Of a DNA stretch of 63,377 nucleotides, positions 58,731-63,377 are shown in pieces. Location: contig CAIRLC010000003.1 of assembly GCA_903879335.1 (NCBI GenBank), positions 1 through 63,377 of the forward strand, written 5' to 3'. Source of the stretch: an uncultured Pseudomonadota bacterium. GTDB taxonomy: Bacteria; Pseudomonadota; Gammaproteobacteria; Steroidobacterales; Steroidobacteraceae. The notes beneath the pieces were generated by a model. It did no database searches. It saw only the letters and a program-made list of their open reading frames with translations, and was not told where the DNA came from. Positions within the stretch are counted from its first letter, which is position 1. Each line of letters opens with the position of its first letter. A program made the position numbers and the translations under genes.

Positions 58731-60839
58731 TTAAGGATAGTAACCGAGACCGAGATAGGGATCCGGCGACTGGCAAGGACCAATATCGGCCATGATGCCG
58801 CACAGGGCATAGCGAGAATTGCGCGCCGCATCCCACAGACCCCAGCCGTCGTCGGTGCCCTTCCAAGCCTCGTCAAAGGCCTCGAAATAGAAGATGTTGA
58901 GCGGGCCGCCGGCGGTCGCCTTCCACGTCGCCATCAGGTCCAAATAGACCTTAGGGTTAATGACGGTGGCCGTGTAAAGCTCAATCGCTGAGGTCGGATT
59001 GGTCCAATTGGCCTTCCAGCCCGTTTCGCCGATCACGATCGGCATCGCGGCGCCGACCGTCGTCTTGCTGCCGGTCAAGGTCGTGAAGGAATGCGCCGAG
59101 GCAGCCGACATATCGCCTTTGGCAAAGGTTAACGCGGCATTCATCATGGCGATGCCGCGCGCTTCGCTCGAGGCAACCGTCAATTGCTGCCAGTTCCACA
59201 AGGTGGGGTTCAGAAGCGCATAGGTGTGGATCGAGGCAAAGTCTAAATACGGCAGGATCGTGTCCGGCTTTTCACCGTTGGAGGCCGTGCCGGCGTAAAA
59301 GCTGGCCGTGTCATCCGCCGTGATCGGCTGGGTCACGGCCGCCCGCACTTGTTGCACGTAACTCAGCAAGCAAGTCACCGGCAAATTGTTCGCCAGTGAG
59401 GTCTCATTGCCTACGCTCAGCGACACCACTTGGGCCGCATAGGTGGTGGCTAGACTAATCGCCGTGGCGATTTGGGCTGAGTTCACCGCATCAACACAGG
59501 TGGCAGGCGCGCCTTCCAGATAAATCCCGAGTTGTACACTCATCGTTGGATAGTTGGCCGCGATCAGACGCAGGATATTGCTCGAATTGCCGTCCGAACC
59601 GTATAGACGGAGCAAGTTGTAGCCCGCCGACTGCAGCAAACCAAGGTCTTGCAGGATCTGTGCATCGGTCGGCACTTCACCAAGCCCCGGACCACCGGCG
59701 CGGTACGGGCTGTAAGCGATCGCCTTACCCGTGGTGTAGACCGACGGCAATGGCCGCAAGGTCGACGCCGCCGTGGCGGTGCCCGTCAGTGCCACCGCCG
59801 TGGCTTTGCCGCCTGCCGTCACCGTCAGCGTCGCCGTCGCATTACCCGCCGCCGTCGGCTTAAACGCTACTCCGAGCGTACAGGTCGCATTCGCCGCGAG
59901 CGCGGCCGTGCAGCCATTGGTCACCACGAAGAGCGCACTCGACGTTCCGGAGAGGGCCGCGGATGTCACGCTCAATGAGCTCGTTCCCGTGTTCTTCAGC
60001 GTGATGCTTTGACTGGCCGAGGTCTGCCCTGCCGCTTGGGAGGCAAAGTTCAGCGAGATCGGCGTCAGCGTGTAACTGGCGGACGCCGCCGCACCGGTGC
60101 CGCTTAGGGCCACGACGAGCGGACTGCCGGTCGCGTTACTGGCAATGGACACTGACGCCGTCGCGGCACCGGTCACGGTGGGCTTGAAGGTGACGGACAC
60201 CGTGCAGGTCGCCTTCGCCGCGAGCGCGGCCGTACAGGTGTTGGTCTGGGCAAACGCCGTCGCATTGGTTCCCGTGAGCGTCACGCCGGACACGGTGACT
60301 GAACCGGTGCCGGTGTTAGTCACCGTAATCGATTGCGCTGCACTGGTGCTGCCCACCGAGGTGGACGTATAGGTCAGCGTGCTCGGCGCGGCCGTGGCGG
60401 TCAGGGTAGTCGCGGCAACGCCCGTGCCGGTGAGTGCTGCTGTCTTTGTCGTGGCGCCAGTCGCGGCAACCGAGAGCGTGGCACTCGAGGCCGACGCGGT
60501 GGTGGGCGCAAATGTCAGCGTGATCGTGCAGGTCTTACCGGCCGCCACGGATGCCGCACAGGTATTGGTTTGCTTGAAGGCCGCAGCGCCCGTGCCGCCA
60601 AGGGATACCGAGACCGCGCCTGCCGTCGTTCCCGAATTCGTCACCGTGACCGTCTTCGCCGCACTGGTGGTCGCGACGGTTTGGTTACCGAAGGCCACTG
60701 AGGTCGGGCTTAGCGTGAGCGTCACCGCGGCATTCGATGCGGCCGCCGCCAAGGTGCATAGCAATCCACTTAACAGAATCTGGCGACCCATCACGGCAAC
60801 GGCTTTGAGTGCGGTCGGCGTACAGGACAGCTTCAGCAT
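58731..60839 (-). CDS. Secreted GH17 beta-1,3-glucanase with Ig-like repeats
   Basis: This 702-residue exported protein has a signal peptide (about residues 1-37), then three Ig-like choice-of-anchor/ASPM-SPD2-Hydin-type repeats (about 38-140, 141-249 and 250-354), each with a C-x9-C pair (for example NTCAASVAAGKTCTI). The C-terminal 345 residues form a glycoside hydrolase family 17 barrel: LLRLYGSDGN, the acid/base Glu in VVSLSVGNETS, the nucleophile Glu in IVIGETGWKANW, and FYFEAFDEAWKG. GH17 enzymes cleave beta-1,3-glucans such as laminarin. GGAA precedes the ATG. It is divergent from a related secreted protein. Confidence 0.88.
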   Translation of the reverse strand: MLKLSCTPTALKAVAVMGRQILLSGLLCTLAAAASNAAVTLTLSPTSVAFGNQTVATTSAAKTVTVTNSGTTAGAVSVSLGGTGAAAFKQTNTCAASVAAGKTCTITLTFAPTTASASSATLSVAATGATTKTAALTGTGVAATTLTATAAPSTLTYTSTSVGSTSAAQSITVTNTGTGSVTVSGVTLTGTNATAFAQTNTCTAALAAKATCTVSVTFKPTVTGAATASVSIASNATGSPLVVALSGTGAAASASYTLTPISLNFASQAAGQTSASQSITLKNTGTSSLSVTSAALSGTSSALFVVTNGCTAALAANATCTLGVAFKPTAAGNATATLTVTAGGKATAVALTGTATAASTLRPLPSVYTTGKAIAYSPYRAGGPGLGEVPTDAQILQDLGLLQSAGYNLLRLYGSDGNSSNILRLIAANYPTMSVQLGIYLEGAPATCVDAVNSAQIATAISLATTYAAQVVSLSVGNETSLANNLPVTCLLSYVQQVRAAVTQPITADDTASFYAGTASNGEKPDTILPYLDFASIHTYALLNPTLWNWQQLTVASSEARGIAMMNAALTFAKGDMSAASAHSFTTLTGSKTTVGAAMPIVIGETGWKANWTNPTSAIELYTATVINPKVYLDLMATWKATAGGPLNIFYFEAFDEAWKGTDDGWGLWDAARNSRYALCGIMADIGPCQSPDPYLGLGYYP

Positions 60840-60898
60840 TTTTTTATCGTTCCGTGGATTGAAATCACGAATTTCGGCGTGTACGCTCAAATCATGGC

Positions 60899-60914
60899 TT
60901 GAAAGCGGTTTCAG
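60899..60914. promoter_or_regulatory. LacI-like operator between the divergent secreted-protein genes
   Basis: TTGAAAGCGGTTTCAG is an inverted repeat (TTGAAA/TTTCA with a GCGG centre). It lies about 42 bases before the plus-strand start codon and 60 before the glucanase start, and the first 15 bases are identical to the element at 62750. LacI/GalR-family sugar regulators bind sites of this kind. Confidence 0.55.
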
Positions 60915-60955
60915 GTCAATCATCACAATATCAGACTATTTACTGGGGTAAACGC

Positions 60956-62473
60956 ATGAACTCTTTGTGTACTGGACGCGACCTTTTCCGTCGCTGCCTG
61001 ATCGCGCTTGCGGGCTTCGCCGGTCTTGCAGCCGCGGGAGCGGCTAACGCGACCTTAAGCCTCACGCCTGCCACCCTGACCTACGGCGCCACGCAAATGG
61101 GCGTTGCCGCTGCCACGCAGGCCATCACCGTCAAGACTACCACTGCTCTTGCGGCAGGTGCGGTGACGAACGCGTTGAGCGGAACGGGCGCGACTTCATT
61201 TTCCGTGGCGAATGGTTGCACGGCGGCACTCGTGATCAACGGCACCTGCACATTGACCGTCACGTTCAAGCCCGCCTCCGTCGGCGCACTGGCTGCAACC
61301 CTGACAGTGGGCGCGACCGGCCAGACATCGGTGACCGCAGCCTTGGCAGGCACCGGCACGTCGCCGTTGTCGCTGACGCCCGCGTCGCTCTCCTTCACCG
61401 GCACGGTCGGTACGGCAACGGCTGCTCAGACCATCAGCGTCAAGACCACTGCGGCCCTGGCGGGTGTGTCTGTCGCGATTACGGGTGCCGGCTTCACGCA
61501 GACCAACACCTGCGCCGCCACGCTTGTGGCCAACGGCACTTGCGCGATCAACGTGGTCTACACCGCGAGCGGTACGGCTGCAGCGACGGGTACCATCACG
61601 GTATCATCGACAACGGCCACCGTGACGGCCGTCACTGGCACGCTCTCGGGTACCGCAGCGGCGCCGATCCCAGCATGGGAATACACCAACACCCTGGGGA
61701 CCCAGACCGCGTCGTTCATGGCCGGTCCACCGATGCGCTATGCCTTGCCAACGGGTAACACAACAGGCCTGCCGGGCTGCGGCAACACCACCGGCGGCGC
61801 CTACGTCCACACGACCGAAGGCGGTGATATCTGCGCATTTGCCAGCACCAATTACGCCTACAGCTATGACTCGTCACAGCTGGGAACGGCATACGGCGAC
61901 TATTACATCTACCAGGCTGCAGCGGGCGCAACCTACACCTCTGCAACGGGCTACTTCGGCTTCTCGATCTTGGCCCCCTATGCCAAGTCGAACGCAGCGA
62001 TCACGCCAATTTCGATCACTAACTCGAAGGCGGTGTTGATCAAGCTGGCTAATATGGTGACGCCATCGGCCACGAACGGTCAGGCCAATGTGATCACCGT
62101 GACGCTGAAGAACGCAGGCATCACCGGCGTATGGCCAACCACAAACCCTGCGGCCTGCTCGACCGATGTCACCCTGCTCACACCGGCGACGGGCACCACG
62201 ACCGGCCCCGGCACGGCGACTTTCACCGGCACCTATCTGGGTCAAGCGTCGGGTGCCTACGTATCGCAGACCGGCCTGCTCGATTACGCCATTCCGTTCT
62301 CGGCATTCACCTGCCTGACCAATGATTCCGGCACCGGCACGGCGACAACCATCGCCGCGCTCCAAGCCACCGGCGTCACGCAAGTGGCCGTATCGGTGGT
62401 GGGAACGAAGAACCCGAAGGTTGTCGTCGGCTCAATCGACGCGATTTCGGTGGGCGGGATCTCCTTCCAATAA
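60956..62473 (+). CDS. Secreted repeat protein with unrecognised C-terminal domain
   Basis: This is a 505-residue exported protein. A signal peptide (about residues 1-32, ending AANA) is followed by two Ig-like repeats (about 33-133 and 134-233) with the same C-x9-C spacing (NGCTAALVINGTCTL, NTCAATLVANGTCAI) as the repeats of the divergent glucanase. The C-terminal 270 residues (from AAPIPAWEYTNTLG) are of no family I recognise; they contain paired cysteines, many Tyr/Gly/Thr, and the block SKAVLIKLANMV. The same domain recurs in the next gene. GGGG precedes the ATG. An extracellular carbohydrate-binding or adhesive role is inferred from the neighbours only. Confidence 0.85.
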   Translation: MNSLCTGRDLFRRCLIALAGFAGLAAAGAANATLSLTPATLTYGATQMGVAAATQAITVKTTTALAAGAVTNALSGTGATSFSVANGCTAALVINGTCTLTVTFKPASVGALAATLTVGATGQTSVTAALAGTGTSPLSLTPASLSFTGTVGTATAAQTISVKTTAALAGVSVAITGAGFTQTNTCAATLVANGTCAINVVYTASGTAAATGTITVSSTTATVTAVTGTLSGTAAAPIPAWEYTNTLGTQTASFMAGPPMRYALPTGNTTGLPGCGNTTGGAYVHTTEGGDICAFASTNYAYSYDSSQLGTAYGDYYIYQAAAGATYTSATGYFGFSILAPYAKSNAAITPISITNSKAVLIKLANMVTPSATNGQANVITVTLKNAGITGVWPTTNPAACSTDVTLLTPATGTTTGPGTATFTGTYLGQASGAYVSQTGLLDYAIPFSAFTCLTNDSGTGTATTIAALQATGVTQVAVSVVGTKNPKVVVGSIDAISVGGISFQ

Positions 62474-62497
62474 AAGACTGAGACCGATGTCGATAAG

Positions 62498-62554
62498 CCC
62501 CAGTTGAACGAATCAACTGGGGTACTTTAAGGGCGGCTTGATGCCGCCCTTTTT
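62498..62554 (+). terminator. Double-hairpin terminator
   Basis: Two perfect stems follow the stop codon: CCCCAGTTGA/TCAACTGGGG (62498-62522) and GGGCGGC/GCCGCCC (62531-62549), the latter followed by TTTTT. The second is a standard Rho-independent terminator; the first may strengthen it or protect the transcript end. Confidence 0.92.
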
Positions 62555-62747
62555 ATTGGATGACCATGACAGAACCTTCAGTTCTTCATGAGTCAATTGC
62601 GTGAATCCGGTGCACGGTCACTCAGCTTAGCGCCACGGCAATTTGCGGCACAGGACAAAAAGTGATTATGTCCAATTGCCTATTTTTCTCGAAAAAAAAT
62701 GATTTTTATCTAGCCTATCGGGAAATGTTGTGATAAAAAATGACAAG

Positions 62748-62767
62748 CGTTGAAAGCGGTTTCAACG
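62748..62767. promoter_or_regulatory. LacI-like operator before the last gene
   Basis: CGTTGAAAGCGGTTTCAACG is a 20-base inverted repeat with perfect eight-base arms around GCGG. Its core of 15 bases is identical to the element at 60899-60913. It lies 50 bases before the ATG at 62818, similar to the spacing at the other gene. Confidence 0.6.
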
Positions 62768-62817
62768 ATTCATCCAGAACAACTGATAAATCCGACATTC
62801 ATTTTTGGGGATCAAAC

Positions 62818-63377
62818 ATGTTCAAATCTTTCTCATTAAAAACCACGCTCGCGGCCGTCTGCCTCGTCGCGGGAACTTCGGCCATGGCCGATGGCACAAT
62901 GCTCTTTGGCTCCGACCTCTCGATCGGCGCCGCACCGAGCTACACCATTTCGACGACCCAAGGCGGCCTCGTCTATGGCTATAACTCCTGCTTCGGCGGT
63001 GCGTCGGCTTGCGGAGCCGGTGGTGACGACTGGCATTACTACTATTCGACGCCAGATTGGTACGTCGCAGGCTTCGATGAGTTCGGTTTGATGGACGGCA
63101 CGCGGGGCGCAGCGGCGCCGGGCAGCTACTACGGCATCGCGATGACGGCTCCAGGCTCGGTTGGCGCCACCGTCGCTCCGAAGGTCAACGTCTCGGACGC
63201 CAAGACCGTGCTCGTCAAGATGGGTAATTTCTGCGGTCCAGTGAACAGTCCACCGGCCTGCCAAAACACTGCAAACGTCCTGACGGTTGTTGTGTCTAAC
63301 GGCACGAAGACGCTCACCATCTATACGGATCCACGTTGGGACACGACCGCCACCGCCGTATGCTCAGCTGACGCGAC
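62818..63377 (+). CDS. Exported protein related to the 60956 C-terminal domain (cut by window end)
   Basis: A reading frame from an ATG with GGGGATC upstream stays open to the window end (186 codons visible, no stop). It starts MFKSFSLKTTLAAVCLVAG, a signal peptide ending AMA, and lacks the Ig-like repeats. Visible blocks YYGIAMTAPG, SDAKTVLVKMGNF, TANVLTVVVSNG and AVCSAD line up in the same order with YFGFSILAPY, NSKAVLIKLANM, QANVITVTLKNAG and AACSTD of the previous protein, so the two share a domain. Several cysteines (for example CFGGASACGAGG) suggest disulfides. Function unknown. Confidence 0.85.
   Translation, partial: MFKSFSLKTTLAAVCLVAGTSAMADGTMLFGSDLSIGAAPSYTISTTQGGLVYGYNSCFGGASACGAGGDDWHYYYSTPDWYVAGFDEFGLMDGTRGAAAPGSYYGIAMTAPGSVGATVAPKVNVSDAKTVLVKMGNFCGPVNSPPACQNTANVLTVVVSNGTKTLTIYTDPRWDTTATAVCSADA

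Follow-up and report, generated by a model that had tools for sequence, protein, structure and literature searches.

The stretch of DNA analysed here, referred to as the window, covers contig C3 in full (63,377 nucleotides) and comes from an uncultured member of the Steroidobacteraceae, whose own genome (G000) comprises 3.14 Mb and is 96.8% complete. At its end lie three genes for secreted proteins, the first of them a beta-1,3-glucanase-like enzyme of glycoside hydrolase (GH) family 17, together with two copies of a near-palindrome that may serve as the operator of a LacI-family regulator. The genes and sites are as follows.

58731..60839, minus strand: secreted GH17 beta-1,3-glucanase-like enzyme of 702 amino acids, with an ATG start at 60839
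60899..60914, no strand: candidate operator 1, TTGAAAGCGGTTTCAG, between the divergent GH17 gene and gene 2, matrix score 25.5
60956..62473, plus strand: gene 2, a secreted protein of 505 amino acids with two choice-of-anchor D/ASH repeats and the shared C-terminal domain
61670..62470, plus strand: shared C-terminal domain within gene 2, predicted to be mainly beta
62529..62551, plus strand: intrinsic-terminator-like hairpin 3' of gene 2, nine pairs followed by a T-rich stretch
62750..62765, no strand: candidate operator 2, TTGAAAGCGGTTTCAA, upstream of gene 3, matrix score 23.5
62818..63377, plus strand: gene 3, a secreted protein (signal peptide by eye) consisting of the shared domain only, truncated by the contig end at 63377

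The initial annotation of this DNA had described the first product as a GH17 enzyme with a signal peptide and Ig-like repeats, and this description holds. A signal peptide recognised by eye is followed by three choice-of-anchor D/ASH Ig-like repeats and a C-terminal GH17 domain. The score against Pfam PF00332 (27.8 bits) is slightly below the cut-off of 28.2; residues 373-677 align with PDB 6fcg (FbGH17A, a bacterial GH17 enzyme; E 3.4e-10), which is the sole PDB sequence match of the protein at E up to 0.001. Both catalytic-glutamate motifs, VGNE and ETGW, align with 6fcg, and GNE and ETGW are kept in 12 of the 12 GH17 sequences compared, among which the rows for G157 and G080 were trimmed by length and not by motif. 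The divergent gene 2 had likewise been read correctly as encoding a secreted protein with the same type of repeat; its signal peptide, too, was judged by eye. With regard to the third protein, said to have its C-terminal domain in common with the second, the domain is clear in the family alignment, but the gene itself is incomplete, being cut by the contig end; its intact counterpart in a second species of the same genus (G007) encodes 271 amino acids. Pairwise BLAST between the shared domains of genes 2 and 3 is weak (E 3e-7 over 56 amino acids). The first 247 bases of another contig of the same genome (C38, L046, positions 1-247) are 92% identical to window positions 63119-63377 inside gene 3, with a 12-base indel; the break in the assembly at this point is probably due to a strain variant or to gene 3 being present twice. 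Beyond those bases, C38 carries a response-regulator/GGDEF-EAL-like gene, as judged by eye. The hairpin between genes 2 and 3 suggests that they form separate transcription units; terminator-like sites number three in the region versus 2.8 in shuffled sequences and are weak evidence taken alone.

The near-palindrome TTGAAAGCGGTTTCA precedes both plus-strand genes, at 60899 and 62750. The initial annotation had placed it 42-50 bases before their start codons; the sites are exact, but the gaps are 41 bases from operator 1 to gene 2 and 52 bases from operator 2 to gene 3. Operator 1 is also located 59 bases from the start of the minus-strand GH17 gene, and two operators therefore cover three genes. 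Both deviate from a perfect palindrome at one central position. In the 3.14-Mb genome, the relaxed site TGAAANCGNTTTCA is found exactly at two places, both in the window, compared with none for the reversed control and about 0.05 expected per genome from base composition. When up to two mismatches are allowed, 111 places are found versus 58 in the control, an over-representation that would be expected of a genome with four LacI-family genes. The matrix scores are derived from 42 training sites, none of which comes from G000 or G007; these were preselected to lie within one mismatch of TGAAANCGNTTTCA, which makes the matrix partly circular when taken alone. The next-best position in the window scores 9.3 with the same matrix. 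In 60 simulated windows, in which only CG-centred positions were scored, the largest score was 18.1, and none reached the 23.5 of the lower site. A single match of this kind could turn up by chance in a large genome; nevertheless, given these counts and the conservation of both sites in G007, the probability that two 15-base matches arose by chance is practically negligible. The initial annotation had likewise regarded two palindromic copies at matching positions as hard to explain by chance.

With one mismatch allowed, there are eight places in the genome, two of which are on contig C10. This locus comprises genes for GH81, porin-like, GH17, LacI-family, abhydrolase, secreted shared-domain, GH1, GH16 and Big_2 proteins and for an MFS_2-GPH symporter. 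Its two sites, GAAAGCGCTTTC, are situated between the GH17 and LacI genes and before the shared-domain gene; an even palindrome with a central CG thus precedes the regulator and target genes. They differ from the window sites at one central base and score about 27, whereas the stretches examined at the other three LacI loci score at most 12.8. The LacI gene (L021:6194-7249) matches PF00356, PF13377 and PF00532, comprising a helix-turn-helix and a periplasmic-binding-protein-like sensor domain, and is the kind of regulator, with a site close by, that had been anticipated from the window. The C10 GH17 enzyme scores 29.4 bits, above the Pfam cut-off of 28.2, and shares 48% identity with the window enzyme across the alignment. 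The C10 GH16 enzyme matches solved laminarinases. Its gene (L021 10533-11501) has no obvious signal peptide by eye, and the protein may be intracellular or its start misplaced. The porin-like protein was labelled by eye and is without a Pfam or PDB match, and none of ten C10 proteins gave a SusD or TonB-receptor Pfam match at E up to 0.01.

Very probably, as far as can be judged from sequence, the three window genes form a satellite of a beta-1,3-glucan (laminarin-type) utilisation regulon that would be controlled by the LacI-family protein of C10. The initial annotation had taken the three genes as one sugar-responsive regulon. Their joint control is supported by the sites, by the C10 regulator and by G007, but the unit had been drawn too small, since it appears as the satellite of a larger regulon on another contig. 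The triad is probably switched on together with the C10 core locus.

The remaining places and LacI-family genes were also considered. None of the six other one-mismatch places lies near a match to the 17 reference proteins: two on C31 and one on C41 are in or by unrelated genes, two are near the C22 LacI gene, and C13:45807 is among catabolic genes in which no sugar enzyme was recognised by eye. The LacI genes of C19 and C22 were rejected as regulators because the stretches examined there score at most 12.8 and because, by eye, their loci have the look of alpha-glucan and alpha-galactoside systems (TonB receptors, GH97-/GH13-like; GH27-like). On C13 (L022, 3423-7253), near a contig end, a LacI gene is found by GH3-like and GH30-like genes, again recognised by eye, and this locus is possibly a second beta-glucan system without the laminarin operator. 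A second LacI-family protein, encoded there or in the missing 3% of the genome, could thus control the window genes and leave the C10 LacI with only its own locus. The GH3-like and GH30-like genes are possible beta-glucan enzymes, and a central G is common to both window sites but absent from those of C10, which would fit such an arrangement. However, the 8.5 kb around the C13 LacI gene are without a strong site (best score -1.9), and its recognition helix reads GLGTASR instead of SPSTVSR. In addition, the window variant adjoins genes for C10 LacI orthologues in three g16 genomes and, at 52-55% identity, in nine GTDB loci. We consider control by a second LacI-family protein very unlikely. Nine of the 11 orthologues compared, which use either site variant, have an identical recognition-helix stretch, SPSTVSRILNGTA; L149 has SASTVSR, and the stretch was not found in G010.

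Among 200 genomes of the family, 32 had an orthologue of the C10 LacI at E up to 1e-90. These divide into 16 at 50-56% identity and 16 with at least 65%; the site comparison used the latter and set them against 16 genomes picked from the 168 without an orthologue, 10 from the same genus and six from the same family. TGAAAGCGSTTTC is present in 15 of the 16 genomes with the orthologue and in one of the 16 without it, G002 (Fisher p 4e-7, for genomes that are related and so not independent). Those 15 genomes contain one to four exact sites each, mostly at glucan genes; they chiefly precede the genes for GH17/LacI, the shared-domain protein, GH1 and the Big_2 protein. The shared-domain family itself occurs in 13 of the 200 genomes, weakly so in G161, and 11 of the 12 clear cases have the LacI orthologue, while G090 carries a partial one at a contig edge. 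In the three g16 genomes (G071, G087 and G101), the 13-base window variant is located between the LacI and GH17 genes, and in two of them also before GH1.

A scan of GTDB with the shared domain returned 20 loci, nine of which are contigs of genomes already numbered here (L136-L143, L154) and 11 of which are additional. Each of the 20 loci has a site that departs from TGAAANCGNTTTCA at no more than one position, and glucanase or GH1 genes are seen in most. A LacI gene is visible in 17; in the remaining three, a contig end interrupts the sequence close to the domain gene. Nine loci, all from the additional set of 11, contain an exact copy of the window variant TGAAAGCGGTTTCA in one orientation or the other. 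The titles of the metagenome-assembled genomes concerned name Steroidobacteraceae, Thiomonas, Ferrovum, Rhodanobacter, and unclassified Proteobacteria or Gammaproteobacteria. In the additional loci (L144-L153, L155), from genomes titled Thiomonas, Ferrovum, Rhodanobacter and Proteobacteria, the LacI protein is 52-55% identical in the nine that show it. When all perfect 10-bp palindromes in the regions upstream of the shared-domain gene were counted, AAAGCGCTTT was present in 19 of 19, a set that excludes L144, whose gene begins at a contig end, and that includes related genomes. The next palindromes were present in two of 19, and the largest count in 200 shuffled sets was three. Unlike the matrix with its preselected sites, this count is an unbiased test. 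The near-identical sites at the C10 locus, this de novo motif, and the occurrence of the window variant beside LacI orthologues in other genera make the satellite reading the best explanation of the window genes.

Several observations weigh against it. The window variant is one central base off the two C10 sites of the same genome, which may alter the affinity. The regulator gene is located on a different contig, and in a genome that is 96.8% complete a missing LacI paralogue is possible. G085 has the LacI orthologue and lacks TGAAAGCGSTTTC, and the sites at G010:C86, in a LacI genome, and at G002:C6 adjoin unrelated genes. Exact TTGAAANCGNTTTCA sites also occur in five genomes from other families of the same order (G040, G042, G049, G050 and G051), in G004, a member of the same genus, and at another position of G007 (C8:128980). 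These extra loci are without matches to the core or window proteins. One of them had a C22-like LacI gene, and other LacI-type proteins can therefore use such sites.

The arrangement in the window is conserved in G007, where the same three genes are present in the same order with both sites, flanked by ygiQ-like and GNAT/queC-like genes (names given by eye). Operator 1 is inside a 26-base block and operator 2 inside a 17-base block that are identical between the two species, while the surrounding upstream DNA has diverged. Among 15 genomes of the genus, including its own, relatives of gene 3 were found in G000 and G007 only, by a single-sequence search. The window GH17 domain is 76% identical to its counterpart on C19 of G007 and 60% identical to that of the C10 locus, and in the tree the former two form one clade with 100/100 support, apart from the core-locus GH17 enzymes of the same two genomes. 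This fits a duplication of part of the core locus, together with its operators, before the two species parted, although the tree gives the clade no firm attachment point. G007 also has a weaker extra site (L037 5330-5347, score 16.9) at the start of the GH17 coding region. The additional site at C8:128980 (L031), an exact TTGAAACCGATTTCA, is far from the core locus and has no reference-protein match nearby.

With regard to mechanism, the C10 LacI-family protein, encoded within the core locus, would be the regulator of both loci. Without substrate, it would sit on the GAAAGCG(C/G)TTTC operators at the core locus and on both window operators and so shut the transcription units. Operator 1 would control the GH17 gene and gene 2 divergently, and operator 2 would control gene 3. 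A short beta-1,3-gluco-oligosaccharide entering the cell, for example laminaribiose, would cause the repressor to leave its operators, and extra glucanase and glucan-capturing secreted proteins would then be made. In this scheme we infer the binding of the C10 LacI to the window sites, repression as opposed to activation, the inducer, the substrate of the enzymes and the binding of glucan by the shared domain. The LacI protein could alternatively be an activator or a catabolite-type regulator resembling CcpA, not a repressor released by substrate. The optimum CcpA site, TGAAAGCGCTTTCA, has almost the same sequence (PMC5483248), and attempts to locate promoters in the window gave no confident result (two found versus 0.8 expected), both of which leave room for this view. 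Nevertheless, the regulator looks local, with one to four exact sites in 15 of 16 genomes and one of them next to its own gene, and more than three-fourths of the local LacI regulators studied are autoregulated according to PMC4052901. An activating or CcpA-like role is thus unlikely.

For a repressor of this type there is a precedent. GlyR3 of Clostridium thermocellum (celC-glyR3-licA) is a LacI-family repressor released by laminaribiose, as described in PMC5483248. The system presented here resembles it in having a LacI-family regulator (release by laminaribiose being a property of GlyR3) and a CcpA-like 14-bp site. It differs in that it belongs to another phylum, that the GlyR3 site at celC is TGAACGCGCGTACA (PMC5483248), and that an unlinked satellite locus with secreted non-enzymatic proteins is present. 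The even palindrome, the central CG and the site by the regulator gene are shared with the BglR-type local LacI regulons for beta-glucosides, in which most sites are 30-140 bp before the starts, as here (PMC4052901). This likeness is one of site features, and 'laminari' is absent from the main text of PMC4052901. As in the laminarin polysaccharide utilisation loci of Muricauda lutaonensis and Formosa, a GH17 laminarinase-like enzyme is part of a laminarin cluster (PMC13188888). In contrast to those loci, the ten C10 proteins gave no SusD or TonB-receptor match, and a porin-like protein and a GPH symporter are found instead.

Sequence searches of Pfam, NCBIfam and the PDB gave no significant match to the shared C-terminal domain. 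Among 17 members scanned with Pfam, the only match to a carbohydrate-binding module (CBM) was CBM_X2 in one member, at E 0.029. Two AlphaFold models are mainly beta, with predicted TM-scores (pTM) of 0.72 and 0.75 and mean predicted local distance difference scores (pLDDT) of 62 and 69. In Foldseek, no match of the first model reached E 0.001, the weak ones being alginate lyases, lectins and CBM86. The second matched two putative Bacteroides glycoside hydrolases (E 1.7e-4 and 4.1e-4, TM-scores 0.28 and 0.36) and, more weakly, CBM28, an SGBP-B, lectins and virus capsids. The query-normalised TM-scores of the matches listed do not exceed 0.36. From these models, a glucan-binding beta-sandwich is a fair guess. 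By its description, VvGH17 of Vibrio has a comparable predicted beta-sandwich glucan-binding region (PMC9026390); in that enzyme it is attached to the GH17 domain, whereas in the present system enzyme and domain belong to different proteins.

The core-locus members of the family are lipoprotein-like with Gly/Ser-rich linkers, as judged by eye. We tentatively propose, with somewhat less than even confidence, that the domain defines a new beta-1,3-glucan-binding family, which in Steroidobacteraceae and other proteobacteria is encoded in lipoprotein form within core laminarin-type loci. A copy, operator included, would in one lineage have come to lie in an unlinked satellite beside a second GH17 gene; the regulon would thereby reach beyond the cell surface, to secreted proteins that capture and cut laminarin. 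It is possible, although we would not favour it, that these proteins have another surface function, such as adhesion, envelope structure or an enzyme activity of unknown type. The lack of significant sequence matches, the middling quality of the models and the weak, mixed structure matches, including virus capsids, are compatible with such a function. Conversely, the presence of the operator at all 20 GTDB loci with the domain, most of them with glucanase or GH1 genes, the lipoprotein-like look of the core-locus members with their linkers, and the carbohydrate-related nature of the best structure matches, weak as these are, argue for glucan binding.

The literature searched for LacI regulators, laminarin, laminaribiose, GH17/GH81/GH16, Steroidobacter and choice-of-anchor D did not include a recognisable description of this regulon among the matches listed. 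The system is of a known kind and well supported by comparison; its new details are the unlinked satellite and one protein family that is undescribed in the libraries searched. The characterised bacterial GH17 endo-beta-1,3-glucanases listed in CAZy are all from marine genera, according to PMC12915301. The analysis provides a candidate regulator, a candidate operator and a list of members for a laminarin-type regulon; the proteobacteria concerned are represented here solely by metagenome-assembled genomes, some of which are probably from lakes, as indicated by the isolate names. It also singles out, by its regulatory context, an undescribed family of secreted domains.

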